Below, in pieces: positions 24,201 to 64,000 of a stretch of 64,000 nt of DNA; within the stretch, counting starts at the first letter, position 1, and the number at the start of each line of letters is the position of its first letter. The DNA lies in contig OY783209.1 in assembly GCA_963678705.1 (NCBI GenBank), forward strand, positions 4,464,001 to 4,528,000, given 5' to 3'. This stretch comes from Panorpa germanica. Taxonomy: Eukaryota > Arthropoda > Insecta > Mecoptera > Panorpidae. Both the position numbers and the translations under genes were made by a program. The notes below the pieces were generated by a model. The model did not search any database and was not told the origin of the DNA. It saw nothing but the letters and a program-made list of their open reading frames with translations.

Positions 24201-27200
24201 TAGATTATATTTACACAATTACACAAAAAACAGAATCATTAAACAATGTGACGTCACTGGTGTTTAAATATGGGCTATTATAAATATGATACAATTTTAG
24301 AGCAAAATAAATTTCGATCAGTTCTAATTATTCATTTTTATTTTAAATATCATCTAATAAGTTCGACAATGCTTATACTCGTATGTCTTACCATCTCGAT
24401 CAATCTTGGCTTCAAACCTAATCCCAGTATCAGCCTGTATTGTAAGGTTGTATTCTTCACTATTTGGTTTCTGCGTCGTTTCCAACATCCATTCGCCGGT
24501 AATATCAACAACGTCTTTATGCATCAATCCAATACGTAGAATATGAACGTCGGTCGTAGCTCGTCGGATAAACGAACTTTCAGAAAACGTAGAGACGGAC
24601 GTAGCATTCAGTAAGTCGATTGTAGGACCTACAAATAAAATAGTTTTTCATTTAAAGTAACAATGTTTTGGTTTGAATAGAAAATGGCGATTGTAGTTTG
24701 ACGTTTATTTGTTAGTGTATGTGTTTTAAGATATTAAAAGTGATAAATAAATACATAGTGTTATATAATCTATAGTATTTATACCAGGATCGTTTAGGTA
24801 ACGTTTTGTTATTTATTACTTAATCTATTTCATTATTTTTAATGTATTTTTAATTATTAAATTGCGTAATAAATTAGATATTATTTATTTAGAGTCAAAG
24901 TGACGTATTTTCAATGACAGATTCTTCAATCTGAAAATAGAATCTAAAAATAAGTTTCAGGAACAATCGCATTGTTTACATAGTAAAATTTTTGGCTACA
25001 AAAATACTACAAGTGTTTTACTTAAATTAAATTTGTTTAGACAGCGGTTGTTAACCTTTTTAAAATCTAACTTTACTACACCGAATTTACGTCACCGTGT
25101 TTTGTAATTATTTTTTTTAATTTTTACGTTTCACTGTGAAGGAAATATAGGAAAAAGTATATCTCGGTATTAAGTAGAAAATAATATGTAAATATAAAAT
25201 ATTATTTTCTCAGTATTTATATTTAGGTGAATTGAACATTGAACCAGAGGAAGAGGATATTCATGTAATCATATGAAAAAATTGAGCGAATGTATTGTAG
25301 AATGCAAATACATATATACAGATATAAATACAGCTGGATACTCGGGCTGGAAAATTTTCAGTGTTTTATTTTTTATAACTTTTTGCATTCTATCTTCTAT
25401 AAAAGATCGCGGTATAAAAATAGTTTGATAAAAATTTAAGTAGTTAAGTAGTTAAGAGTTAAGTTAACATAAATGATGAAAACGTCGTGACATTTGGAGG
25501 GTCGATACAAATAGTTAAAATACATGCTGTCTCAACATTTTAGAGACCTAGGGTTCATAGTTTTCTTTTTATACATGATTAAAAATAGTCATTTTCCATA
25601 CAAATCATAATTTTTAGCTCAATTTCATCACATAATATAACTTTTAACTATAAAAAAATGGTGACACGGCTTTCAAAAACTAGGTGTATATAAAAGAATA
25701 TTTTCTGTAACTATTGCAAAAAGAAAATTATCGAAAACATAACACACAAACTCCACGGTTTTTTATAAAATATTACCTCTCGATCCATTCTACATAATTT
25801 TCTTAACTTTTAAGACTTTGTACCTTTGCTGCCTATAATTAAACATTGATAAGCAATAAAACTTTATTTCAAATAGATTAGAGAACAGTTTACAATTATT
25901 ATCATCATTTCATCATATCTGTATCTGTATATCTGTTTTTTACACGGAACTAAATGTTATTGACAACGTGTTGTTTATGTTCGTATTTAACAATGACACA
26001 TGGTTTGATCTTTACACTTAACTTTCGAGTTAAAGTTATTATAGTGTAATCTAAACATAGGCGCACACTGAAATATTATTGATCGAACAGATCTGATTTA
26101 TATAAGTGAAACATTTTAGAAATTACTTTTAAAAGAGTATTTCTGAACTATAATAATAATTAATAATAAAATTTTGGAATAGTACAGGAATACTGTTTTA
26201 AAAGTGATTCGTAAAATGTTTCACTCATATAAATCAGATCTGTTCGATCACGATCATAGTTCGTAAGATTCAGGAATAGGGTCCCAGAACCGTCGAATGG
26301 GTCATTCTAAAACCACGTGGTTTCATTTTGGCATCTTTAGAACTCATGTAGCCAACGTAGCTCTCGTAGCCATGACAATCCTATTTCCCCTTTAGATTGA
26401 AACGTATTTTTTTTCTTATTACATCCAGATGACATTTTGTGTTTCTGTTAACAAAACTTTTTAAAAATTATTTGGTATAAAATGAACAAGACCGATATTT
26501 GTTTTCTATGTTTTTTATAGTTATAAATATTCTGAGTCAATCAAAGTCTGTCTCTGTCAAAATTAAAGTATGGAAATAAATATTCATACGTTGTCACTTA
26601 TTTTGCAAACTATTTTCGTTGTGTCAAGCAAAATAAATGACAAAAATTACGTTGCTTGATTCTAGCTCCCACTGCATTCGCGAAACTCTGCATATCTTTC
26701 TATCTAATAAATGCTTTTCAAAGCAATCTTAAGAAAATTACTATTGTTATATCACAAAATATCCTTTTCAACATAGGTCGAATGTTAAAAAAGCCAAAAT
26801 AATTAGCACCGCAAGGTATATTACAGTTTCTACTGCGTATAAAGGATATTAATAAATATGTATTTCAATCTTCAAGATGATTGTAAGAAAATAGATTTTT
26901 TTTGAGAAAGTACATAAACAAATACATAATGTATTAAAATGCTCAAAAATGAATTGCAGAATAAAACGCAACTCTTAACTTTGATCTGAGAGTTGAACCC
27001 TTAAACACAACCGCCCGTTGCTTGCAGCCATTGTCTTTTCTAAATAACTACAATACACTAATAAATTATCCATATTTATTATTCCAACTACTCATATTAG
27101 ACCAGGGTAGAAGCCGTCAAAAATAATTAAAAACATAAAAAAATTAAAGTAGAATGAAACCTATTGGAAATGGAAGGGAATACTACTAAAATGAAAGGAA

Positions 27201-30200
27201 AAATAAATTACAGTCGATCTGAGGTTGGGAAGGGGTAGGGGGTGAGGTTTTAAGGGTAAAAATTGGTAAATCTTGATTTCCGGCAAAACTACAAGTCCTA
27301 TCGAAAAAAGTTAAACGGCAAAGTTGTAGATAATAAAAAGATCTACAACTTTTGTATCTACACTTTTACTCCATAACCTCAAAATTCATGTAAAAAATCC
27401 AAAAAACCACATTTTTGATTTTTTATTTATATCTTTTACAAAAAAATTTTTTTTTTCATGATATTTGGTGAAAACTTACCTCTTTATGTCCCAAACACAC
27501 TGGAATTTTGAAGATTTAAAATACTAATTTTTTCACCCTATTTTGACTCGATATCGAAAAAAAAACCCTAATTTTCAATCGAAAATTCTCACGTCAAAAT
27601 ATCTGATTTTTCAAAGAAGTCGGTGGGCTTTTTGTTCGTTGAAATCTCTATTTTCTGATGGTGTAAAAAAAAATATACATTACTATGGAAAAATTTTTCA
27701 GAAAATGCAAAAAAACGAAAAATACTAAAATTCGAAATTTTTTTTTTAATCTTTATGTACAATTTTGAGGTATTCATTAAAATTTTTACTTTAATTACTC
27801 GAAAAACGTTAGGGACCATGTTAGATTAATAAACAAAAAATTGCAAGTCGAAATGTACTACTATAATTAACAACTAAATAAGTTAATAAAGTTAATATTT
27901 AATATGACATCTACAAAATTTTGTCGAATTTTCTTTAAATTATATGCGTAGATGCCTATTTATTGCTATTTTAAAATTATACCTATATACCTGAGAGAAG
28001 TCTTGTCTCTAAAAACGGTCCAATCTTCTGTTAAAGTAAACGGAGATATTATAGCAATTGATCCGTTATTGATATTTCAAAGAATATCTCTAACGATCGA
28101 CAGTAAAAAAGATATGGAAACTTATTTACAATACGAGCTTGCACCTTTTCCATTATCTCTTTTTACCGAAAATGGCCTCAGAAAAAACGTTAAATCTCAG
28201 CTCTACGAATTATTTGTGAGTACGAATAGACCAACGCATTTTGACGGCATTGTGCATGTCGTCGACGGTGGATTTTTACTACACAAAGTAATTTGGCAGA
28301 AAAATGAAACGGTGGAAGAGATCATGAATATATATTTACGCTATGTAGAAAAACATTACGCACCAGACAGCTGTATAGTTTTTTATGGGTACCCTGAAAT
28401 TGAAAAATCAATTACTGTGTCAACAGTACCAGCAGTTCATTCAACTAAAAAAGGAGAACGTAGTCGTAGAAAGACGTCAGACAATATTCCAGAGTTCAAT
28501 TATCAAAACCATACAAAAATACCATTTTTGCAAGAAAAATTTTTATCTAATGAGAAAAACAAAGACAAAATAATAAAATCGTTAATGCAAGTATTACAGT
28601 CAAAAGTATTTTTCTGTAAACAAGCTAAAGAAGATGCTGATGCTGACATTATTAAGACCTCGATAGAAATTGCCAAAGATACTAATAAAACTGTCATTGT
28701 TGTAGGACAACATATTGATCTTTTGGTCCTTTTGAATCAATTAAATTCTAATAATCATAAAATTTATTTTCTCAAGCCCGGTTCTGGAAATATAAAAGAT
28801 CTTTTTTACACGTCTAATAGTTTCAAATGTGAATCCGTCAAAAACATCGTTGCATTTCTGCATTGTTTTTCCGGTTGCGACACAACATCTGGATTTGCCG
28901 AAAAAGGAAAGAAAACTATCGTAAATTCATTATTAGACAATCAAAATTTGTCAAATTTGGCTAATATTTTTTTTAAATAAGATGTAAACAAAGAAGATAT
29001 AAAAAAAAATGGATTGAAATTAATTAAATCTATTTATAAATGTAAAAAGGATAATATATCACTGAATCAATTAAGATTTCAAAAATATCAATTGGCAAAA
29101 ATTAAATCATCTTTCATATTGGCAAATCTCCCACCCACAGAAGGTGCAGCAGAACAACATTGTTACAGGGCATATTATCAGCTTCAAACGTGGCTGGGTA
29201 ATGAATTAACAGCAACAGATTGGGGCTGGAAGCAACATCAACATGGAATTATGCCCAAATTTACAGAAATTGAATTAATTCCGGAAAAATTGCTGAAAAC
29301 TATTTGCTGCAGCTGTGAAACTGGATGTAATAATTTAAAATGTGGCTGCCGAAAACATGGTTTAAAATGCACAAATTTATGCTCAAATTGTGATGGTTCT
29401 GAACAATGCGCCAATGTGGAGAAAAAAATCTACGAGGAAGTTTATGATTCAGATGAAATTGCGGATGAAGAACCAATGCAGACCGAAAATAATGTTAGAG
29501 ACGAAGACGGTGATGGTCTTGAAGATGTCGAAGATCTACTAGAATCAGAAAGGCCTGTCGAATCTAATGATCAAGAAATACCATCAAAAAGACAGAAACT
29601 GATGAATAAGTGATTCGAATTGAATACTATGTTTTGATAGTGTAATCATTAAAAAAAATCTCTACTCAATAGTACGATTTACGTGTATATTTCTATCTAA
29701 TGAGATTTTCTAATACATAAATGTAATGAAAATTTAATAAATCAACTCTTATTACTGAAAAAAATAGCAGTAGTCACATTTTTTTAATAAAATCCCCTTT
29801 AAATCGTATTTTTAATATTTACAACAACTATGTTTTTTGCGATATTTATGTTTAATTGGTTTGTAATTTTTTTGTTTATTAATCTAACATGGAACCTAAC
29901 GTTTTTCGAGTAATTAAAGTAAAAATTTTAATGAATACCTCAAAATTGTACATAAAGATTAAAAAAAAAATTTTGAATTTTAGTATTTTTCGTTCTTTTG
30001 CATTTTCTGAAAAAATTTTCCATAGTAATGTATATTTTTTTTACACCATCAGAAAATAGAGATTTCAACGAACAAAAAGCCCACCGACTTTTTTGAAAAA
30101 TCAGATATTTTGACGTGAGAATTTTCGATTGAAAATTAGGGTTTTTTTTTTGATATCGAGTCAAAATAGGGTGAAAAAATTAATATTTTAAATCTTCAAA

Positions 30201-33200
30201 ATTCCAGTGTATTTGGGACATAAAGAGGTAAGTTTTCACCAAATATCATGAAAAAAAAAATTTTTTTGTAAAAGATATAAATAAAAAATCAAAAATGTGG
30301 TTTTTTGGATTTTTTACATGAATTTTGAGGTTATGGAGTAAAAGTGTAGATACAAAAGTTGTAGATCTTTTTATTATCTACAACTTTGCCATTTAACTTT
30401 TTTCGATAGGACTTGTAGTTTTGCCGGAAATCGAGATTTACCGATTTTTACCCTTAAAACCTCACCCCCTACCCCTTCCCAACCTCAGATCGACTGTAAT
30501 TTATTTTTCCTTTCATTTTAGTAGTATTCCCTTCCATTTCCAATAGGTTTCATTCTACTTTAATTTTTTTATGTTTCTAAAATTATCTACCCTGGTCTAT
30601 ATCTTTAATCATATTAGCAAACAACAAAATTTGTAAATTCTAGAATATTCATTGTGTTTGTTATTATTCAACAATTAACGCAATGTTCTAACTTTGTTGA
30701 CTGTTGAGTCATTAACATCTAATCTATTTATCTCGTCAAAGGTTACAATCGAATGCATATCGTATGATTAAACGTTAACACTATTTTCCATGTATAAATA
30801 AATTAATAATAACAAAAAACTTTTAGTTTCATTTAATTATTGTATAGTGTAACATCTGAAATTGTCATTTCTTTACCCGTCAAGTGTTAATATTATATAT
30901 GATATTTATTATGTAAGTATTTAATTTAATGCATTTATTTATTTAATACTTCATTAATTGTTAGTCATATTCTAGTACATTGCTATGCATATAAATTAAA
31001 ATATTAATTATAAAATATACATTAAATGTATAAAAACCATGATGTAAATCTTCTAGGTAGTTAATAGTTTTGTAATTAATTAAATAATACTAAATAAACA
31101 CCCGGTGACACATTAACATGTATTTAAGGTTTATTTAACATAAAAATGTTTATCTTTTGCATATTTGTTCAAATTTCATTACAAAAATCATCGTTTCTTT
31201 ATGTAATTCAATCTTTTAAGTACGATTAAATAATATTACTTATGTATCTTATATTATTTGATGACATTGTTAAAAAAATGATATTAGAACTTCGAGAAAT
31301 ACTAAAACATAACGCAAGATAAAAAGTATTACTTTCGAAACTGTTAAGTTTTATAAAAAACATCTGGTTTTCTATAAGGAACGTCGCGTAAGAACTTAAT
31401 CGAGCGCAAATTTATTATTTTATTTTTTATTTAATTTAATTATATATTTTTAATTTTTTAAATCTCTATCTGAGGGTAGTGATTTATTTGTGAAGAAAAT
31501 AACGAATGTAAGCTTAATACAATATATCTTAAACGTTTACTGTATGAACGTATAATTACAACTCTTATTTTAGAACTCTAACTTACATCCAACAAAAAAT
31601 TTAACTTTAAACCAATATATAATGTACAATGGAAGAGGATAACAATATCAATAGACAAGAATTTCTTTTCTTTTGCGAACAATTATAAATATTCTGTAAA
31701 CAGTGTTAAAACAGTATCAATTCAAAAAAAAAACCGGTGTTGAATTTGTCCGCAAGTCAATGATAAACATTTAAATTAATGACTATATAAAAATATGTTT
31801 GCCTCGATCTACGCAATACTGAACAGAAACTACATGCGTAAGCAATTATTCCAATTTAAATGTTAGCGTTTTTAATAGTCTCTTTAGATATTCTATCAGA
31901 TTGTTGCACGGACATAGTAGCCGTTGGTATTGAGAGTGACAATGAATATTGTTAATGTAATACATGTGTTATTCCCAATATTATAGAAGAGATAATTGTA
32001 ACAATTTCTATCCAAGAAACTATATTTTTTAAGATTGCGTCAAATGCATTTTAAAACATATCTCAAACCCGGAAAACCACCTTTTTGTGCTAAAAACTTT
32101 ACTATTTTTGATTTAAAACAAAGATTAAAGACTTACCGTATGGTGCACTAAGATTAGCACTAGACACTTCTCCCTCTATGGTCACTAGTAAACTTTTGAT
32201 GGACGTATCCACAGATAACAAGAGCTTATTTGATCCACTTAATTTGTGACACACGGCTAATGTTGCCTGAAATATAAATATATATATAATTACATCAAAT
32301 TCTTTGGTTGTTTTCCATTTAGAAATATTTACAATTGTCACTCACCATGCCTTGATGATCGAACTCTTCTTCGTCGGCAGTTTGTGCGCTTGTCCCGGGG
32401 TCTCCTTTAAGGACAATGAAGTCTCCGCCGGTCCGTTTAGCCACTTCCTGTAAATGTCCATCTAAACCGTCAGCACCCCACCAAAAAACATACAGCTGAA
32501 AAATAAACAAAACAAAAAACCACATGAGAAACCTAGTTTTTGCTACTTTTAATAATCATGCATTGAGCTCTTTATTTTGAAAGTGAAGTAAGTCCATTTT
32601 AGACATAAAATCTCATGTATGTATTTGTGAATTTTTGTATCACAGTCATAAATTTTGTAATGTTATATCTAATCTAAAATTTGTCTCCCATAAAAAAGAA
32701 AAAAACAAGATCAATTAACAAAGTATTAGTAAAATATATATATATCTTTATCAAACATGTGACGTTGCCATAAAAGGAGGGGTGGGGGGGTGACTTTTGG
32801 ATGACCCCTTAACTGAAAATTAAAGAATTGGCACTTATAAAAGCCACATGTTTGTAATGCGGTAAATTATTAGAACTTTCACTACTCAAATATTCGAGAA
32901 AACATGATTTTAAATTAGATTTTATCTATGTTAATATTAACTTGATTTTCAAAAATTGACTTATCCCACTTTCAAAATGAATTGGTGTTTGAAACGTTCT
33001 TGGTAGACTATTTTTTTTGTGTGAAATTCTTACTCGAATTCGTTTTCTGATTAATGTTGTGACAGTCAACAACGCCAGATCGGAATCACTGGGCGTCCGA
33101 TCCGTGGTCAGGAAGATAGCACTATCGTAGGGCACCAACTGGCTGGAACGCAGAGCCCCTAGATAGGCTAGACCACCGGTGTCAGTTTCTTTGTACGAGA

Positions 33201-57200: not shown

Positions 57201-60200
57201 GTTGTGTTTTTTTTAAAATGCACCAGTTGTTTTTATTTAGTAAATTGCCTGTTGATTGTCAACCAGTAACAATCACAAATATTTATTTATTTAATGTAAT
57301 TAAACATTGTTTATATAATTTGAATTCATTTTAAAACAAATAAATACTAAAATATAACGTCGGAGTATTTCCGCTACTAATTCTACTTCCGACGATATAC
57401 TAATATATTGGTAGTTTTTATGCTGTCTTATCTGACCAGATCTTATTCACTAATGAACCTATTTGTTTCACCCCACAAAAACATGCTGGAAATTGTTTTG
57501 GTATTTATATCATTTGAACATGATAATAGAAAACTAAAGTATAGGCAACCATTCCAACTCTAGTATTTTTTGTAGAATAGGTACATAAGTAGTTCTCTTA
57601 GGCCTCTATTTTGTAATAATAATAATAATTTAATATTTGAAGGTAAACACTGTAAAGGAAAAGTCGCGCAGAAATAAATACGCGCCGCAAATTTGCATCA
57701 AATTGCGAATTGCGAAGTATTACAAAGTTGCGAATTTATTACCGCCAGATTTTTTAACGCATTGCGGACCTACCCTTAGAAATGAGCGCCTAAACATTTA
57801 TCAATCAATTTTTTAAACAGCGTAGCCTAACTTTATTGAAAATCTGTTGTCAAAACCTGCTTTTGTCTTAAATTCTTTAAAATCATTCTGTTTATTAATA
57901 AAACTTTATTGTTAGCTAACAAAATATTTCTGATCATATCAGATTTAAAAAGACGAAAGTTTAATGCAGATAAACTAAAAATAAAATTTAAAAATTCCTT
58001 TTATTTATAAATGATATCTATTTTTCAAAGCGTGCAAATATGCAGATAAAAATTAATGGTATGAAATCTTAAATGTTAACATTACAGATGACACCCTCAT
58101 TGAATAAATTATATAGAAAATATTAATTATATTTCTTCTTTTAATTAATAATTAATCCAATCACCTCTAACTATATACCTACATCAAGTTTACTAGCAAA
58201 TCATGGCAGTTATCTTCTCTTTCTTCTTCTTCTTCTTCTTGAATGCTTTACTAGTTTGCCTTCATTTCTATACCATTGCAACATTCAATACTTTTACGAA
58301 ATCAACATACCTTCGTTGAACACAAATGACTCTGCCTCATTATGCGCAGTTATTGATTTGGTATTACACCATAACTAAATATTTTAACAATAGATAAAAT
58401 AATATTATTTACTCTTTCAATATTTGTTTTGTAATCTAATAGTTACATTGTTAAATATTCTTTTCCAACATGAGACACCCATGTAGACAATCTGACATTT
58501 TTAAGGTGGTAACATAACCTTGAAATTTTGAAATTATTTATATAGTATAACTATTGCATATAAGTAGCGATATGATTATGTACATTTTGATTAACAAAAT
58601 TATTTTTATTTTCAGAACCCACCCTTCAACCGCCGCCCCCTATTCAACCTCTGGAAATATTTAGTGAAATAAGTCTTGACCCCGATTCACAAGATACAAA
58701 TAATCAATATACCATTCACGATAATTCTTATTATACTCAAAATTTAAATCCTCTAGAAGAATCAAGTTCAATAAATCGAAATCCTTCACAATCTCCTTTT
58801 TCTCCTGTTAATCCCTTATCTAGCTTAACAAATCCAGCCGCACAGTTTACTGCATCTTTATCCCAATTACCATCTGTAGCTTCATCTGTTTTTTCTTCGT
58901 TTTCGAGTATTTTGGGAAGAACTTCTGCTGTTGTTAACCCGCCAAAACCGCCTGAAGTTGAGTATAAATCATCGCTTGATAACCTGCTCGGTGGATATGA
59001 CAATAGGTAAGGACAAAGCTTAAAATAAGAATTAATTACTTCAACTTTTTAATAAATGTTTGTTTTAGTAACCAGTATTCAGCTGCGCCTGTGCCATTAA
59101 TACCTGCAACACAATATACTTCAACTACGCCTGAAACTACTGCAAGGGATGTTGATCCACTACCTCCTGTGCCTATTTATTCGGGAAGTTCAACACAAAT
59201 TCCTTCTTCAGCGCCTCCAACGTTAGGTAATATAATTATTTAAAGAACATATTAATATTATTATATCATAATAACGTATGGAATGTTCTTTAAAGGTGGA
59301 AGCAACAACTACCGCCTTCACAGAAAAAAGACCTACGCTCAAGTACCAGGTTTATGCCGGACGGATACTCCTGCTGCTTTTAAACCACAAGATCAGTTTG
59401 TGCCTTTAAGTCAATCGTCTTCCAATTTACCTCCTTTACCTGTAGCACCCGTACAAGTATCTTTTGACGGAAATTCAACTTCTAATGAAGTAAATTTAGG
59501 ATCCGTTCAACCGCAACATCAAATATTTCCGCCTTTTCCACAATTTTCCAATACTGGTAATTCTTTAAGCAACGCCCATTTATATGATAACTCGATACCC
59601 ACCAGTATACATCCAAGTTCAGGAAATTTGAGTGAATATCCAAGTTCTACTGCCGCTCAAGAACACAGTCAAAGTAATATTCCCTATTGGTCTTCTGTGC
59701 CAACTAATTTAAGCCAAGTACACTCTCCGAATATTTTCAATCCAGCGTCAGCGTTTGAACAACCTACAACTAAATCAGATAATTCAAGTTTACCTCCTGC
59801 GACATTACCAAATCCGAATACCAGCGCAACCTTTGCAACTAATATTGCTCCAGTTCTATTTTCACCGTTGCAGCCTGATAATTCGTTGCCACCAGTTACA
59901 TCTTCTCATCAAAATCAAGAAACGCTGAGTAAATCTATAGCGCCTGAACAGCATACAATAACAAATTTGCCACCCCCACCATCATCTTCATTGCATCAAA
60001 TTAAAAGTGTGTCTGCCAATTCTTCTGATTTGCAAAACATTCAGTCTAGTCAGTTACCACCTCCTCCCATTTTTTCGGGATTTTCTTCTTCCCCACAAAT
60101 TCAAAGCGTGCCACCTAACCTCACCGGTCATATAAACTACTCTCAGAGTCCATTGCAACCTGCACCTAAAAGTGTATCTCCATCCCCACACGTTCAAGGA

Positions 60201-63200
60201 CAATCGTCCGCTTTTATAAACAGTCCACCAACATCTGCACCTTTACCCCCTCCTCCTACAGGTGGTGTTTCATCTTTCCGGAAACAAGATTTATATAAAA
60301 GCTCTCCGTTTTCCAATTATCCTAAACCACCACAACTTAACACCTCTACATCTCAAGCTGGGCCACTTTTCACAGGTTTACCTCCGAAACCAAATCTTTT
60401 TCCGGCTTCACCACCTTCTGTAGCTCCTGCTGGCCTAACACAAAACGTTCAAATTTTCAATCCAGCTATTTTTGGTGCTGCGGAAAATAATACGTCCTCT
60501 ACTCAACCGATTCCAACAACTGATAATATAAATTACAGTAATCCTTCATCTTTTTTTTCACAAAGTAATAATTTAATTCAAGGACCAAATAGTATAGCTA
60601 ATACTCCAAGCAACCCTTCCGGCAATCTACCTTTCAATAATCAAACACCTGCAGTGAATTCTGGACGATCCTCTGTTACAAGTTTCACTTCTAACTTACC
60701 TTCTGAACGGAATAGTGAATCTCCTGCAACCATAATTCCCGACACAAACGACTTAAGTAGAAACTTAAGTGCACCAAAAATAACGAAATTAACTACCGAG
60801 GAAGCTATTGTACAGGAACCCAGTCCACAGGCGCAAGGTCAAGAGGAAGTTCCAATAGCACAGCCGGAAATTAGTGCCAAGTCATATTTTGAACAAAATT
60901 ATTTTCCTAATAACCCATCTGAGTCTACTGACGGTAAATCTTTCGTTATTCAACAACCGGACAATAATTTGTTGTCATCCTTCAGCAATAATTCTCCGGA
61001 GCAAAATTCCGCAAATTATTATCAACCTCCTAGTGCAGCAGACTTTTTTGATTCGTCATACGCTCTCAATCATAATATAACTGATACAGTAACACAGTTT
61101 GCGCAATCAACGCCTAACTTCTTTACTCAGCAACACTCCACTTCTCCATATTTTCCACCTACAAATATCTATTCCGATTCATCTAATATAATGGCATCAT
61201 CAGATATGACATTGCCTCAAGATTTTGCAGGAATGCAGTTTACGGGCAGCAATGCTGAAATAGAAAATTTGGTATATCGACCGGTTTATCAGCATTGGTT
61301 TTATAAGAAGGATAATGATACAAAAGCAATTTGGGAACCTTTTTCTATGGTTGATTCCATGGCATTAGAAGAAGCTTGCACAGGAGGTATTTCAGATATA
61401 ATAGCCGGTACATATAAATATAACTCTTTTACAATGTTTTTCATATTTCCAGCAGCTCCAGATGATTTAGTTCCCACAGATGGAGGACGTTATGACGTAA
61501 ACATATGTACAAGAATGCGCGTTCCAGTTTTTTGGACAGGAAATCCTACGGAAGTTCGTAGATGTTCATGGTTCTTTAAAACTGTAGACTCTAGATTTAT
61601 ACCTTATGAGGAACCCGTTGCATCACGACTTGAAGATGAATATAGATTAGCCATGGAGACCAATGACTGGCATCGCCGTGTTTCTCTACCCAATGGCGAA
61701 ACAGTTGTATTTCACGGTCCGCTTGTGATTGTACATTTTCTACAAGCACAAAGTCCAGACGCTTGGGGAAACACACCAGTAAGTCATATATTGACACGTC
61801 TAATTTCATAGTATAAATTCTTACGCTTAAATCTATTTTTATATTTAGCAAACTGCAAATAGACCACGCGTGGTTAAACGTGGAGTTGATGAATTTGATA
61901 TTAACGACGGTGATCCAAAAGAGGTGGATCATTTGTTATTCCTAGTCCATGGTATTGGATCCGTTTGTGATTTGAAGTTTAGAACTGTAGAAGAAGTTGG
62001 TAAGCATTTTTATTTCACAAACAATTTTCTGTTGAGGTGTACAATGCAAACTAACATTTCCAATTTCATAGTTGACGAATTCAGAAGCTCGTCTTTGCAA
62101 CTTCTGCAGTCTCATTATCGATCAGCTTGCAGTCGTGGAGAAGTTAATCGTGTTGAAGTACTGCCTGTGTCGTGGCATGGGAAGTTGCATTCTGATGAAA
62201 CTGGCATTGATAAGAAACTGAAGGCCATTACACTCGAATCAATCCCGAAGCTAAGGAATTTTACGAACGACACTCTGTTAGATGTTTTATTCTACACAAG
62301 TCCCATGTTTTGCGAGGTATATAGATTTTTAAGGTTGTTGTGACATTGAAATGAAGTCGTGTGTGTGTGTACTACAACGTATTTATTATTTTTAGAATAT
62401 CATGCAAACTGTTGGAAGTGAACTCAACCGTTTGTACGCCCTGTTTCAAAAGCGAAATCCCTCTTTTAAAGGAGGGGTATCTTTAGGGGGACATAGCTTG
62501 GGGTCACTGATTTTGTTTGATCTATTATGTCATCAAAAGCCGGCTGGAGCAACAGATAAACATAGCTCAACTGTTGTTGAGAATCAATCGCAGGTATTTT
62601 AAAATATTACAATAATTAACACAAATAAATGAGTTTGACTTACTTATGAACATACTGTATAGGATAACGAACAGGATAAGGAGAAAGAAGGAGATACTAT
62701 TAAACCTTTAAAGCGTGGACTTTCACGCAAAATTAGTTACGTAATAGGGCATGCCGGAACTGGCCAGCCTTTCATCAAATATCCTCAATTGGACTTCTAT
62801 CCCAATAGTTTCTTCGCATTGGGATCTCCCATCGGTATGTATTTCGATTTTAATTGTTGCTGAATCTAATAGAAATGGATAATGATATAATTTTCTGTAA
62901 GGATGAATAAATTTGTATTGTGTTCGATTTGTAGGCATGTTTGTAACAGTTCGAGGAATTGATTCTCTTGGATTAGATTTTGCGCTTCCTACATGCCCCA
63001 ACTTCTTTAATATTTTCCATCCGTACGATCCCGTTGCTTACAGAGTAGAAGCCCTAGTCAATCCAGATACAAGCGGTTTACGACCGGTTCTTATACCGCA
63101 TCATAAAGGAAGAAAAAGAATGCATTTAGGTAATAACTCGTTAAATAAACATACTGCTACATGTTGCTATGCTGTTGTCATGTTTGCATTTGCAGGGGCA

Positions 63201-64000
63201 TATCATACCCTGTACATTTGTTATTATAAAGAACTAATTAGAGTTTGTTTTCATTCTTACTAAATAGAATTAAAAGACACAATGACAAGAGTTGGTGCAG
63301 ATCTGAAACAACGTCTCCTGGATTCCGTGAGAAGTACCTGGAACTCTGTTTATCAAATGGCAGTGTTTAAAAATCAACAATCTTTAGAGGAAGAAGTAGA
63401 CAAGGTAATTCTATAAAATATAAAGGAACGGACATTGTTTTAAGGCTTTGAGGGCTAATATTTCTCTCTGTTTTTAATTTAATTGTAGGTTTTGGAGGAA
63501 CAGTTAAACTTGGAGACAAATAATAGAGTACGATTGGACAGTTCAAACTCAGCAAGTGATGCTGAAAACCCTGAAACTGATTTGCCTCTGGGGCGTCTTA
63601 ACAGTGGTCGTCGTATTGATTACGTGCTTCAGGAAGCGCCTTTGGAATTTTTCAACGACTATCTATTTGCTCTTACAAGTCATGTTTGCTACTGGTATGC
63701 ATTAAACATAAAGGTTTCGTTTGAAGCATGCGTATCTAACATCTTATTAAATGTAATAAATTAATTTTGCAGGGAATCTGAAGATACTATGCTTTTAATA
63801 TTAAAAGAAATTTACAAATCTCGAGGAATTACAACCGATAGTCAAATTGCTCAACCAACTATGACAATTGAACGACCTTCATCAGAAGCATCATCACGTT
63901 CAAATTCAACACCACCAACAGCAAATATTATCCCTGGCTTTGGACCTGCTGCTGCACCATCTACAGCTGATTTAGTGACACGGCCCCCTCCGACAGGCAT
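15063..64000 (+). CDS. SEC23IP: SEC23IP/PA-PLA1-type phospholipase (WWE-lipase-DDHD), 3' end outside window
   Basis: Intracellular phosphatidic-acid-preferring phospholipase A1 family; SEC23IP/p125 acts with COPII at ER exit sites. Exons: 15063-15210, 58616-59006, 59069-59226, 59296-61386, 61453-61778, 61849-61999, 62072-62316, 62396-62593, 62663-62834, 62935-63129, 63268-63404, 63489-63694, 63774-beyond 64000. Phases close at every junction, giving about 1548 codons to the window edge. Residues 1 to about 890 are Pro/Ser/Asn-rich and disordered, with many PPPP and NPF/NPS runs. The WWE domain starts near 892, a VHGIG oxyanion motif lies near 1071, the GHSLG nucleophile elbow near 1204, and the DDHD domain follows. 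The long N-terminus plus WWE favours SEC23IP over DDHD1/DDHD2; the insect orthologue is usually called PAPLA1. The N-terminal [16 protein letters not shown] resembles the human SEC23IP start as I recall it, which supports the exon 1 join. An independent gene starting near 58 kb is the alternative. Confidence 0.9.
15211..16783. other. start of SEC23IP intron 1, 3' flank of the nested vWA gene
   Basis: AT-rich, with no coding signal. On the minus strand, AATAAA at 16686-16691 lies about 95 bp beyond the stop codon of the nested vWA gene and is its likely poly(A) signal. The short frames at 16050-16238 (+) and 16393-16575 (-) look like chance. Confidence 0.45.
16784..16944 (-). CDS. vWA gene, last exon: membrane helix and basic tail
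   Basis: The exon encodes about 52 residues: a short linker, a helix rich in Ile, Val and Leu ([11 protein letters not shown] onward), then [12 protein letters not shown] and a stop. A basic stop-transfer sequence after one helix, combined with the N-terminal signal peptide, predicts type I topology with a tail of about 20 residues. Confidence 0.85.
16784..44372 (-). CDS. secreted/type I membrane protein with hemicentin-like vWA domain
   Basis: Exons in transcript order: 44372-43736, 33266-33034, 32495-32346, 32266-32137, 24628-24392, 20002-19888, 19800-19688, 19242-19124, 19056-18959, 18277-17991, 17924-17751, 16944-16784. The total is 2454 nt, 817 residues plus stop, every junction GT-AG with closed phase. 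Residues 1-22 are a signal peptide ([17 protein letters not shown]). Residues 23-170 are acidic, Asn/Thr-rich and probably disordered. The vWA domain spans about 172-335, and [16 protein letters not shown] resembles the hemicentin/VWA7 group. A Cys-bearing beta-rich ectodomain follows, then a hydrophobic helix at about 772-795 and a short basic tail. The gene lies wholly within SEC23IP intron 1. It is probably an extracellular adhesion or matrix-type protein; function unknown. I give no gene symbol because the subfamily is uncertain. Confidence 0.85.
17751..20002 (-). CDS. vWA gene exons 6-11: membrane-proximal ectodomain
   Basis: Six exons (20002-19888, 19800-19688, 19242-19124, 19056-18959, 18277-17991, 17924-17751) encode about 300 residues with alternating beta-strand patterns. 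Examples are [26 protein letters not shown] and [11 protein letters not shown], which resemble the Ig/fibronectin-like or CLCA/VWA7 C-terminal sandwiches. Paired cysteines ([18 protein letters not shown]) suggest disulfides. Exons 9 and 10 are separated by a 681 nt intron almost filled by a MITE. Confidence 0.8.
18347..18924 (+). mobile_element. GGGCTTGTGTCCT MITE, copy A
   Basis: A 578 bp element with ends GGGCTTGTGTCCT and, reverse-complemented, GGCCTTGTGTCCT. The body matches copy B at 21068-21700 end to end in inverted orientation (for example TTTAGCGCTAGAAATGG and GACGGAGATATAGCAATT). It fills most of the intron between exons 10 and 9 of the vWA gene. There is no coding capacity; the TSD is unclear, although AAT/ATT flanks extend the inverted ends. 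Superfamily unassigned. Confidence 0.75.
21068..21700 (-). mobile_element. GGGCTTGTGTCCT MITE, copy B (inverted)
   Basis: A 633 bp element bounded by GGGCTTGTGTCCTATGTC and GAGGACACAAGCCC, the full-length partner of copy A in the opposite orientation. It sits in intron 5 of the vWA gene, about 2.1 kb from copy A. It is slightly longer than copy A because of small insertions. Non-coding. Confidence 0.75.
23042..23776. mobile_element. hAT-like non-autonomous element relic
   Basis: The left end is CAGTGGCGTAAGTAGG and the reverse complement of the right end is CAGGGCCGTAACTAGAC, each followed by a GC-rich (G)CCCC/GGGC patch. CAGNGNCGTAACTAG ends and an imperfect 8 bp flank pair (AGAAGATT / AGGGTATT, 5 of 8 matching) fit the hAT pattern. 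The 735 bp interior has no transposase. A minus-strand reading frame at 23611-23793 is only the translated terminus. Confidence 0.45.
24392..24628 (-). CDS. vWA gene exon 5
   Basis: The exon encodes about 79 residues, from [19 protein letters not shown] to EAKIDR, and includes [10 protein letters not shown], a typical strand-turn pattern. It joins in phase to 32137 upstream and 20002 downstream. It begins the beta-rich ectodomain after the vWA domain. The 7.5 kb intron upstream carries the large PIN-domain transposon. Confidence 0.85.
26081..26286. mobile_element. hairpin MITE of the GGCCCTATTCCT family
   Basis: Arms 26081-26144 and 26187-26249 are inverted copies sharing GATCGAACAGATCTGATTTATAT, AGTGAAACATTTT and TTTTAAAAG. 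The right side continues to CAGGAATAGGGTCCC. The longer relative at 48091-48742 has the same termini. The palindrome would fold as a near-continuous hairpin. Confidence 0.6.
26311..26674 (+). repeat. dispersed repeat with CCACGTGG end, copy 1
   Basis: It begins AACCACGTGGTTTCATTTT and ends with CTTGATTCTAGCTCCC. The same opening, internal (GGAAATAAATATTCATA) and closing segments recur in order and orientation at 34461-34612 but more tightly spaced, so copy 1 appears to carry an internal insertion. No coding capacity. Confidence 0.5.
27098..27846 (+). repeat. left terminal inverted repeat of the PIN-domain transposon
   Basis: An inverted repeat of about 749 bp matching 29861-30599. It contains a G-rich run at 27225-27247, poly(A/T) tracts, and an internal palindrome AAAGTTGTAGAT...ATCTACAACTTT near 27320-27352. 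Reading frames inside it are mirrored in the other arm and are not regarded as genes. Confidence 0.9.
27952..29613 (+). CDS. PIN/XPG-like nuclease with Cys-rich C-terminus, one internal stop
   Basis: One continuous frame runs from ATG 27952 to TGA 29613, broken by a single TAA at 28978-28980, which splits it into 342 and 210 codons. The first part has [11 protein letters not shown], then [43 protein letters not shown] and [12 protein letters not shown], in the order I recall for a widespread metazoan family with a PIN-like fold. The second part has [15 protein letters not shown], and the cluster CCSCETGC...[10 protein letters not shown]...CSNC, a CxC zinc-binding pattern, then an acidic tail. 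From memory the family usually shows FDGY and GxDTDLL, so FYGY and GQHIDLL here suggest damaged catalytic sites. It is the only gene of the transposon; the role is inferred to be mobilisation or replication of the element. An N-terminal extension may be missing. Confidence 0.75.
29861..30599 (-). repeat. right terminal inverted repeat of the PIN-domain transposon
   Basis: Reverse complement of 27098-27846. Differences visible by eye are a few transitions (for example ATTGG to ATCGG and AAACGG to AAATGG) and a different 20-30 bp stretch just inside the terminus. Confidence 0.9.
30603..32136. other. distal part of vWA gene intron 4
   Basis: AT-rich sequence between the transposon and exon 4 of the vWA gene. 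I see no exon, RNA gene or clear element. Confidence 0.4.
32137..33266 (-). CDS. vWA gene exons 2-4: body of the vWA domain
   Basis: Exons 33266-33034, 32495-32346 and 32266-32137 encode the centre and end of the vWA fold: [26 protein letters not shown] (MIDAS loop 2 position), [13 protein letters not shown] (loop 3), [22 protein letters not shown], then [19 protein letters not shown]. The order matches hemicentin-type vWA domains. Loop 1, in exon 1, reads VDTNAW instead of DxSxS, so metal-dependent ligand binding may be lost. The two introns inside this block are 538 and 79 nt. Confidence 0.85.
34461..34660 (+). repeat. dispersed repeat with CCACGTGG end, copy 2
   Basis: It opens AACCTCGTGGTTTCATTTT, contains GGAAATAAATATCCATATG and CTTGATTCTAGCTCCC (shared with 26311-26674), and is followed by AAACCACGTGGTTT at 34650. 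The two ends could be the inverted termini of a unit of about 200 bp, each end itself palindromic. Confidence 0.45.
35185..35393. mobile_element. GTTCAAATT hairpin MITE, copy 1
   Basis: A 209 bp palindrome. The left arm starts GTTCAAATTGCGAGAGTTCG and the right arm ends CGAGTTCTCATAATTTGAAC. Both arms carry TGACNCATGCTTAA and GTATAAATCTGC-type blocks. TA lies next to the left end and TTA next to the right, which would suit a TA-inserting (Tc1/mariner-type) MITE. Copies recur at 45451 and 50611. Confidence 0.6.
36971..37205 (+). mobile_element. GGGCTTGTGTCCT MITE, truncated copy
   Basis: It matches the first 220-240 bp of copy A (GGGCTTGTGTCCTCAT, TTTAGTGGTCGA, GACGGAGATATAGCAATT) and then loses similarity near 37200. 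Older than copies A and B, judging by its substitutions. Confidence 0.65.
39895..40345 (-). mobile_element. LINE (non-LTR retrotransposon) reverse-transcriptase fragment
   Basis: On the minus strand two adjoining frames encode the C-terminal end of a LINE reverse transcriptase: [43 protein letters not shown], then after a frame change [38 protein letters not shown] and [15 protein letters not shown]. The LGYTF and RVWRLGE...LFDKL pattern is typical of insect LINE ORF2 proteins. A poly(A) run in the frame has caused a frameshift, and both ends are truncated. Dead copy. Confidence 0.75.
41985..42330 (-). mobile_element. mariner transposase relic
   Basis: Translating the minus strand across changing frames gives [22 protein letters not shown], then [17 protein letters not shown], then [19 protein letters not shown]. 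This order matches the central and C-terminal mariner transposase (MLIVFFDIRGIVHHEFVP..., PKLKLPLRGTRFxSIEAI). Several stops and frame changes are present, and part of the DDD region is missing. The termini were not located. Confidence 0.65.
43155..43260 (-). mobile_element. possible tRNA-derived SINE scrap
   Basis: On the minus strand, GCCGGGGATGTCAGAGTTCGATTCCCGAAG has a B-box-like core (GAGTTCGATTCCC) but no partner acceptor stem or normal anticodon arm. It could be SINE head material. Weak call. Confidence 0.3.
43530..43682 (+). mobile_element. TAGGCC-ended MITE, fragment
   Basis: It shares CGCATACACGTTCTATCTCTTACTAACAACA-type sequence and the terminal GGCTAAGGTTTGCAACCAGTCG...TGTGCGG.GGGCCTAAG with 5762-6117, in the same orientation. 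The left end has decayed. It ends only about 50 bp from the exon 1 splice donor of the vWA gene. Confidence 0.5.
43736..44372 (-). CDS. vWA gene exon 1: signal peptide, acidic spacer, start of vWA
   Basis: It starts at the first ATG ([23 protein letters not shown]), a clear signal peptide. The next 150 residues are Glu/Asn/Thr-rich with repeated ETTT/ENEET-like runs, probably disordered and glycosylated. The last 41 residues, from [17 protein letters not shown], start the vWA fold. The exon ends in phase 1 before GTACGTAAG at 43735. On the minus strand a TATATATA run at about 44486-44494 lies about 115 bp upstream of the ATG and could be a TATA element. Confidence 0.85.
45451..45636. mobile_element. 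GTTCAAATT hairpin MITE, copy 2
   Basis: It begins near GAGTTCGGTGCGACTCATGCG and ends CCGAACTCTCACAATTTGAAC next to TATA. Inverted arms are shared with 35185-35393 and 50611-50750; the outer left bases are lost. Confidence 0.5.
47055..47290. mobile_element. palindromic MITE-like block with GAGCGGT arms
   Basis: The left arm AATAAGAGCGGTTATTTTAAA...AAGAAACGCAATATTTCCG is inverted on the right as CGAAGTATTGCGTTTTTCT...TTTAAAATAACAGCTC and CCGCTCTTTTTGAAATA. A decayed relative lies at about 34290-34435 (CCGCAATATTTTCGTAAAAAG, TTTAATCTGAAGTAC). No coding capacity. Confidence 0.45.
48091..48742. mobile_element. GGCCCTATTCCT element, long copy
   Basis: Inverted ends of about 100 bp: GGCCCTATTCCTGAGTCTTG...GATCTGATTTATATGAGTGAAACATTTTACGAAT on the left, and the reverse complement on the right ending AGGAATAGGGCC. 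The 450 bp interior is non-coding. It shares both arms with 26081-26286. The TSD is uncertain because the ends are low-complexity GGG/CCC. Confidence 0.6.
50611..50750. mobile_element. GTTCAAATT hairpin MITE, copy 3
   Basis: It runs from TTTCGCGGTGACCCATGCTTAA to CACTGTCGAACTCTCGTAATTTGAAC followed by TATATA. The central TATAAATCTACGATACGATAGTGAATTTTAT-like block is shared with copy 2. The outer left arm is truncated. Confidence 0.5.
54855..54883 (+). other. G-quadruplex-forming motif in a GC-rich island
   Basis: Five runs of three or more G occur within 29 bp, with loops of four, three, one and one bases. It lies in a GC-richer island of about 150 bp (54770-54920) that stands out in very AT-rich intron DNA. 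It could be a regulatory element or a decayed transposon end. Confidence 0.6.
56281..56318. repeat. (AGCTCT)n-type short tandem repeat
   Basis: An interrupted tandem array of CTCTAG/AGCTCT hexamers, about six units. Confidence 0.7.
58219..58240. repeat. (TTC)7 microsatellite
   Basis: A simple TTC run about 375 bp upstream of SEC23IP exon 2. Confidence 0.8.
58616..61386 (+). CDS. SEC23IP: SEC23IP exons 2-4: disordered Pro/Ser-rich region and start of WWE
   Basis: Exons 58616-59006, 59069-59226 and 59296-61386 encode residues of about 50 to 930. The region is dominated by Pro, Ser, Asn, Gln and Thr with repeated PPPP, LPPP, SPN and NPF-like pieces and no folded domain until the end; in SEC23IP this region contacts SEC23. 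From about residue 892, [24 protein letters not shown] is the first half of the WWE-like domain. The introns are only 62 and 69 nt. The last exon ends in phase 1 before GTATTT; the same frame happens to stay open through the next intron. Confidence 0.85.
61387..61452 (+). other. SEC23IP: short in-frame intron inside the WWE domain
   Basis: A 66 nt GT-AG segment with a pyrimidine-rich 3' end that keeps the reading frame open (22 codons). Its translation is an AT-rich, aromatic stretch ([13 protein letters not shown]) with no place in the WWE fold. Removing it joins LEEACTG to (A)[15 protein letters not shown], which has the expected family length. Neighbouring introns are 62-79 nt. The acceptor is a CAGCAG tandem that could give products differing by one Ala. 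Confidence 0.8.
61453..62593 (+). CDS. SEC23IP: SEC23IP exons 5-8: end of WWE and lipase core
   Basis: Exons 61453-61778, 61849-61999, 62072-62316 and 62396-62593. [19 protein letters not shown] and DSRFIPYEE finish the WWE-like domain. [12 protein letters not shown] and [18 protein letters not shown] give the oxyanion region. [35 protein letters not shown] and [19 protein letters not shown] follow. The Ser codon of GHSLG is at 62495-62497 and is the predicted nucleophile. All motifs expected for an active PA-PLA1 are present here. Confidence 0.9.
62663..64000 (+). CDS. SEC23IP: SEC23IP exons 9-13: DDHD domain and C-terminal tail (partial)
   Basis: Exons 62663-62834, 62935-63129, 63268-63404, 63489-63694 and 63774-64000+. 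[16 protein letters not shown] and [16 protein letters not shown] start the DDHD domain. [31 protein letters not shown] and [20 protein letters not shown] complete it, with the Asp/His residues conserved. After the domain comes a Ser/Thr/Pro-rich tail that runs off the window. Only about 50 residues of charged linker separate the GHSLG exon from FFALGSP, so no SAM domain is visible where human SEC23IP and DDHD2 carry one. Confidence 0.9.

Follow-up and report, generated by a model that had tools for sequence, protein, structure and literature searches.

The Academ superfamily of DNA transposons and its AcademX lineage, which reportedly go back to Kapitonov and Jurka in 2010 and to Kojima in 2020, are characterized by a nuclease of the XPG type and a Cys8 zinc finger. 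P elements generate target-site duplications (TSDs) of 8 bp and are not known to carry an XPG nuclease, and PIF/Harbinger elements prefer 3-bp targets of the TWA type. In PMC9587614, Academ is counted among the DDD/E superfamilies, and PMC10045372 gives TSDs of 3 or 4 bp for AcademX and of 9 or 10 bp for AcademH, tied to the encoded nuclease and helicase, respectively. In this report, we characterize an element of the insect Panorpa germanica that lies in a stretch of 64,000 nucleotides (the window; GenBank assembly GCA_963678705.1, contig OY783209.1, positions 4,464,001 to 4,528,000) and whose recognizable coding is a nuclease followed by a Cys-rich CxC module. A first-pass annotation, made from the letters of the window, had proposed that it is either a non-autonomous member of an Academ-like superfamily or a transposon driven by its own PIN-CxC protein, to be decided by recurrence of its ends and TSD in the host and by a longer relative with an Asp-Asp-Glu (DDE) transposase. 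Our data indicate that the element is very probably an internally deleted, non-autonomous copy of an AcademX-type cut-and-paste DNA transposon, whose parent would encode DDE transposase and nuclease in one protein and mobilize the copy in trans.

The element and its deleted parental gene

The element spans positions 27098-30599 of the window and is bounded by perfect 14-bp termini (TAGACCAGGGTAGA, in reverse complement at the right), directly inside which lies a short non-matching patch of the terminal inverted repeats (TIRs). The repeat arms then pair with 99% complementarity over 27127-27672/30035-30580 and 97% over 27666-27840/29868-30042, amounting to about 740 bp per side, and TAT is duplicated around the element, the left flank ending in CATAT and the right flank beginning with TATC. 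Repeat alignment and flank comparison thus bear out the coordinates, inverted repeats and duplication of the first-pass annotation, but the single frame it had placed at 27952-29613 is split by an in-frame TAA into a piece of 342 residues (27952-28980) and 210 codons running to the natural stop. Of the motifs it had quoted for the nuclease, FYGYP and GQHIDLL each lack an aspartate conserved in all 79 long relatives described below, so that two of the seven acidic positions of the nuclease are altered in this copy. Its remark that no DDE transposase is visible was correct for the window copy, which does not contain this stretch of the gene. Against Pfam, the two frame pieces had three weak hits, to unrelated families and not close to the cut-off.

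A search with the window frame retrieved 99 proteins (7994 candidates scored) and one with protein P0067 retrieved 336, of which the best 120 of 336 were used, giving 213 distinct relatives among the matches listed. The longer relative with a DDE region was found many times over: 106 of the 213 run from the DDE region to the nuclease end and 16 from the DDE region to the nuclease without the tail, with 52 comprising the nuclease/CxC part only and 39 being otherwise partial; 67 exceed 1400 residues. Full-length relatives are single proteins of ~1450-1550 residues that combine an RNase-H-like DDE transposase, a FEN1/EXO1-type nuclease and a Cys-rich tail. Residue conservation was scored in the 79 proteins of at least 1330 residues (P0101 numbering), the 134 shorter ones of the 213 being left out. 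D427 and D430 (DNAD), D589 (FDQPL), H622 (GGFH) and D834 and E838 (DMxIEQ) of the DDE region are invariant in all 79, as are D1105, D1181, D1204, D1206 and D1261 of the nuclease region, in which D1065 is found in 78 (one gap) and D1179 in 77, the other two having Glu; these nuclease residues form an ordered set like the active-site acidic residues of FEN1/EXO1/XPG. N-terminal Cys/His pairs (C94, C97, H165, C168 and others) are also conserved and, from their sequence, look zinc-binding.

The predicted DDE fold is nearest to those of the P element, Transib, hAT (Hermes) and RAG1, with the Drosophila P element transposase (6pe2/6p5a) as the best structural match at a sequence identity of only 9-10%, and the nuclease part matches EXO1/FEN1/XPG by profile and predicted fold. 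Foldseek searches with two models returned 321 and 147 matches, none at E <= 0.001, the top rows for the first model being FEN/EXO/XRN nucleases, and a search of the PDB with the single protein P0101 returned 0 matches. When 30 relatives were compared with Pfam, five families matched at E <= 0.01 and no helicase family was among them. PF20231 (DUF6589) matched seven of these 30 at that threshold, the best just under the cut-off, and in the relatives displayed it falls in the DDE region, which suggests that DUF6589 may be a transposase domain. Most relatives are unnamed, and the named ones are mainly insect proteins labelled 'uncharacterised' or 'Tesmin/TSO1-like CXC domain-containing', alongside a coral record (P0174) and one from a rust fungus (P0170). 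The latter, from Austropuccinia psidii, is a long relative 39% identical to P0067 over 99%, and may stem from horizontal transfer, from contamination or from an old lineage in fungi. A phage collection gave no match, and protein-alignment searches of viral contigs and of genome contigs yielded 38 and 39 stretches that fit a pattern, none of them a relative.

Comparison with these proteins defines what the window copy has lost. P0102, 82% identical, aligns to the window only from residue 815, its first 814 residues having no significant counterpart, and at E values up to 10 the long relatives gave only short chance-like extra matches to the window, among the matches listed. For relatives of more than 1300 residues, the median first residue aligned to the window is 968; some 965 residues at the start of the full-length protein are thus absent from the window copy. 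In sister copies L077 and L079, the shared 5' region runs on beyond the point matching window position 27995, into other sequence that leads to the gene start; 27995/27997 therefore marks a deletion junction, which places the start codon at 27952 within the former 5' leader. The sisters have been shortened in other ways: L077 (both ends present) retains residues 1-374, after which it skips to the 3' end, L079 (left end in the stretch examined) keeps residues 1-102 followed by the nuclease, and L097 (both ends present) keeps P0102 residues 731-998 unbroken, with the DDE end contiguous with the nuclease. Since such differing deletion forms share the same ends, the parent must have encoded one long protein.

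Copies, duplications and empty sites in the host genome

The host genome searched was the 464 Mb assembly (G000), in which the window lies on contig 6. Exact matches to the 14-bp terminus number 155 forward and 160 reverse, compared with one and zero for a backwards-read control pattern. Spacing was analysed for 98 of these 315 places and gave 40 forward/reverse neighbours at most 12 kb apart (median 3.29 kb), of which 39 measure between 0.70 and 3.56 kb; the remaining one, of 8.8 kb, is L076, a copy carrying an insert. Two non-random sets of 20 were then compared, the first consisting of the first 19 terminus pairs listed plus the 8.8-kb pair and the second of 17 places that had no partner nearby plus three short pairs. 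In the first set, 18 of 20 copies have an exact 3-bp duplication and none a 4-bp one, and when the left flank of one copy is set against the right flank of another, 42 of 380 combinations agree. In the second, 13 loci showed no terminus pair in the retrieved stretch with two mismatches allowed and stand outside the TSD count; six of the seven complete pairs have an exact 3-bp duplication. In total, 26 of 29 complete copies, including L097 (AAG) and the window copy (TAT), carry an exact 3-bp TSD, so that both the ends, far above chance, and the duplication recur in the host. The triplets vary (TAA, ATA, AAT, TTA, TTC, CTG, TCA, TAC, TTG, TAG, AAA and others), and the target is therefore AT-rich without a fixed triplet. 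An empty-site query made of the L062 flanks minus one TTA had 46 host matches, the 40 strongest of which cross the join, and two aligned empty sites of L062 are both uninterrupted with a single TTA. Together, the exact duplications and the empty sites establish that 3 bp of target were duplicated when the element inserted.

Of the parental gene, the DDE core has nearly vanished from this genome. A search with the nuclease half gave 678 first-look candidates, and all 34 that were scored matched, 33 of them with the nuclease half only and one being L099. When the DDE core was the query, 75 of 76 candidates were scored and 65 matches obtained, the best of which is a 92-residue stretch at 88% identity in L097; the remaining ones are 22-65% identical, and the longest belong to other families at 44-45% and contain stops. 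L099 (G000:C8:3145400-3154000) represents a different family of this type: it is 6378 bp long and carries, on the minus strand, a DDE-nuclease gene that is near-complete but has stops in its frame; its repeats of ~330-355 bp start TAGNCCGG, and the window element starts TAGACCAGG.

Four observations weigh against reading the element as a trans-mobilized deletion derivative. No same-family helper with a DDE core was found in the assembly among the 75 of 76 candidates scored, three of the 29 complete copies (L057, L073 and L094) have no exact 3-bp duplication, L099 has no visible 3-bp duplication, and seven of 19 sister fragments are free of stops and frameshifts.

L062 (G000:C1:8852917-8856402) and L087 (G000:C2:15838700-15848619) differ in their interiors and occupy the same position in another high-copy repeat, both being flanked by CATATTTA on the left and TTAACTCT on the right; uninterrupted copies of that repeat exist. 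Both ends of L057 (G000:C1:482275-485818) are left-type, without a target duplication, and the seven other copies compared have one of each, so that L057 is perhaps a recombinant or aberrant product. L088 (G000:C2:15848450-15857431) contains three termini in the same orientation, of which the second and third lie 4857 bp apart and the element content is near-identical, and is a tandemly repeated unit that takes in part of the element. L092 and L093, near-identical truncated copies ~33 kb apart on G000:C5, are possibly a local duplication. In viral contigs, the 14-bp terminus occurred in 48 stretches, one match each, which we judged to be chance.

Coding decay and alternative explanations

The window copy was aligned with 19 sisters, leaving out L069, which has no coding region. 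A premature stop or frameshift is present in 12 of the 19. At codon 28711, the window and eight others have His, eight have Asp, one has Tyr and two have a deletion; a set of copies bearing a lost catalytic Asp was amplified. The median ratio of non-synonymous to synonymous differences (pN/pS) is 0.91 (quartiles 0.74-1.37; 188 of 190 pairs), and variable sites number 64, 47 and 54 at the three codon positions. The fragment looks like a sequence in neutral decay with no purifying selection. In addition, derivatives without any coding (L069, 0.96 kb; L095, 0.70 kb) or without the nuclease (L077) carry 3-bp duplications. The window copy itself is unable to encode a working transposase, and since its DDE coding is lost and only a damaged nuclease tail is left, the element, one decayed copy of a transposon common in insects, is most probably carried along by other elements rather than a new mobility type.

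The DDE region, the nuclease and the 3-bp TSD all fit AcademX and no helicase is present; we therefore file the family as AcademX-like, an assignment made by described features. Like AcademX, it has a DDE transposase with a nuclease (in the full-length relatives), inverted repeats and a TSD within the 3-4 bp range; unlike it, the window copy is without the DDE part, and the TIRs here reach ~740 bp. EXO1, FEN1 and XPG share the profile, the fold and the order of acidic residues with the nuclease but are cellular repair enzymes without a transposase fusion, and the window copy has two of the seven acidic positions changed. The Drosophila P element resembles the family in its predicted RNase-H-like fold with a helical insertion between the second Asp and the Glu, but the 3-bp TSD and the nuclease set the family apart, and only the predicted fold is common. 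A PIF/Harbinger assignment was rejected, the TSDs (CTG, TTC, TCA, TAC, AAA, ATA, AAT, TTG and TAG among them) not being TWA. AcademH belongs to the same superfamily and has a DDE transposase, but PMC10045372 gives it a helicase and 9-10 bp TSDs, in contrast to 3 bp and no helicase in 30 relatives here.

It is rather unlikely that the family belongs instead to a non-Academ DDE superfamily, undescribed or otherwise named, that also gained an XPG-like nuclease. The comparison included no catalogued Academ sequence, the Cys module has nine cysteines in the consensus as against the Cys8 of Academ, and Pfam names part of the protein only as DUF6589 (in seven of 30 members); nevertheless, nuclease, 3-bp TSD and DDE together are the combination given for AcademX and Academ in PMC10045372 and PMC9587614.

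A second alternative would make the truncated nuclease-CxC product a trans regulator of the full-length transposase that partly drives the spread of deletion derivatives. In P elements, the truncated KP protein acts as such a regulator, and here 33 of the 34 scored matches retain the C-terminal fragment, in contrast to the near loss of the same-family DDE core from the genome, with the fragment open in seven of 19 copies. However, the median pN/pS of 0.91, the even spread of variable sites over codon positions, the 12 broken copies and the insertion of derivatives without the fragment (L069, L095 and L077) make this improbable.

That a new, DDE-free type of transposon is at work here, with the PIN/XPG-CxC protein as its own mobility enzyme, as the first-pass annotation had also considered, is highly improbable despite the clean TIRs and TSD, the nuclease-CxC part as the only recognizable coding, the many host copies and the seven open fragments, since 106 of the 213 listed relatives link the nuclease to a DDE region and the shorter records are partial or deleted, L097 of the same genome contradicts it by keeping DDE-end coding upstream of the nuclease, nuclease-less copies have TSDs, the fragment evolves neutrally, and amplified copies bear a lost catalytic Asp.

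Non-autonomous membership of an Academ-like superfamily, the other proposal of that annotation, is supported by the long relatives that join DDE and nuclease and by the same-ended sisters that keep other pieces of the gene. As a refutation, it had named the frame being cargo in full-length relatives with a standard transposase; these relatives do encode one, but the nuclease forms a domain within that long protein, and a cargo gene was rejected. A tyrosine recombinase was likewise set aside, as DDE and nuclease parts are all that the long proteins show, in searches none of which was aimed at recombinases.

Table 1. Features of the element, in window positions
Feature	Position	Strand	Remarks
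Target-site duplication TAT, left	27095..27097	.	Flank comparison
Left TIR	27098..27840	+	14 bp TAGACCAGGGTAGA perfect, then unmatched patch, then ~97-99% match
Remnant of parental 5' region	27841..27995	+	Continues differently in L077 and L079
Deletion junction	27995..27997	+	Parental 5' region meets codons ~965-970 of full-length protein; ~965 codons gone
XPG/FEN1/EXO1-like nuclease part of transposase gene	27997..28977	+	Inside open reading frame 27952-28980
Asp to Tyr codon (FYGYP)	28384..28386	+	Asp in 79/79 long relatives; Tyr in the window only, among the 15/20 aligned copies having the codon
Asp to His codon (GQHIDLL)	28711..28713	+	Asp in 79/79 long relatives; His also in 8/19 other copies
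Premature in-frame TAA	28978..28980	+	In the window only, among 20 aligned copies
C-terminal part of same gene: acidic tail, natural stop	28981..29613	+	
Cys-rich CxC module (CCSCETGC...EQC)	29305..29409	+	
Right TIR	29868..30599	-	Complementarity to left arm
Target-site duplication TAT, right	30600..30602	.	Flank comparison

Elsewhere in the window, exons of a host gene lie at 58591-63263 (+), in which the frame 59256-61811 had one hit, phospholipase DDHD2 of a wasp (E 3.5e-33).

Proposed mechanism and significance

Our data suggest a model whereby an intact parent would encode one protein of ~1500 residues, with a Cys/His N-terminus, an RNase-H-like DDE region containing a large helical insertion, the nuclease and the CxC tail. 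A deletion of ~965 codons and part of the 5' leader fused the 5' end to nuclease codons, and the full-length protein would recognize the ~740-bp inverted repeats in trans, allowing the shortened element to reach at least dozens of copies. This protein would bind the repeats, cut with its DDE site and join target phosphates three base pairs apart. For trans-mobilization and for DDE cutting and joining, we draw on the predicted folds and on analogy with known DDE transposases; for the nuclease, we infer that it may trim or open DNA ends (flanks, hairpins or gaps) during excision or repair. No statement of a likeness between the Academ DDE region and P, Transib, hAT or RAG was found in a search outside which most subscription papers and Repbase Reports lay, and one may well be published.

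A bolder version, which we regard as quite doubtful, would have a P-element/RAG-like DDE transposase fused to a FEN1/EXO1-type nuclease that is obligate in excision or target joining, with the fragment made by deletion derivatives modulating that step in trans. If this were true, the family would be a natural series of domain-deletion mutants of a two-nuclease transposition pathway.

What looked like a DDE-free transposon is thus explained as an ordinary deletion derivative, and many 'CXC domain-containing' proteins of insects, so far unnamed, are tied to a transposase. Importantly, a predicted DDE region resembling P, Transib, hAT and RAG that is covalently joined to a flap-nuclease-type domain makes the role of the nuclease testable.

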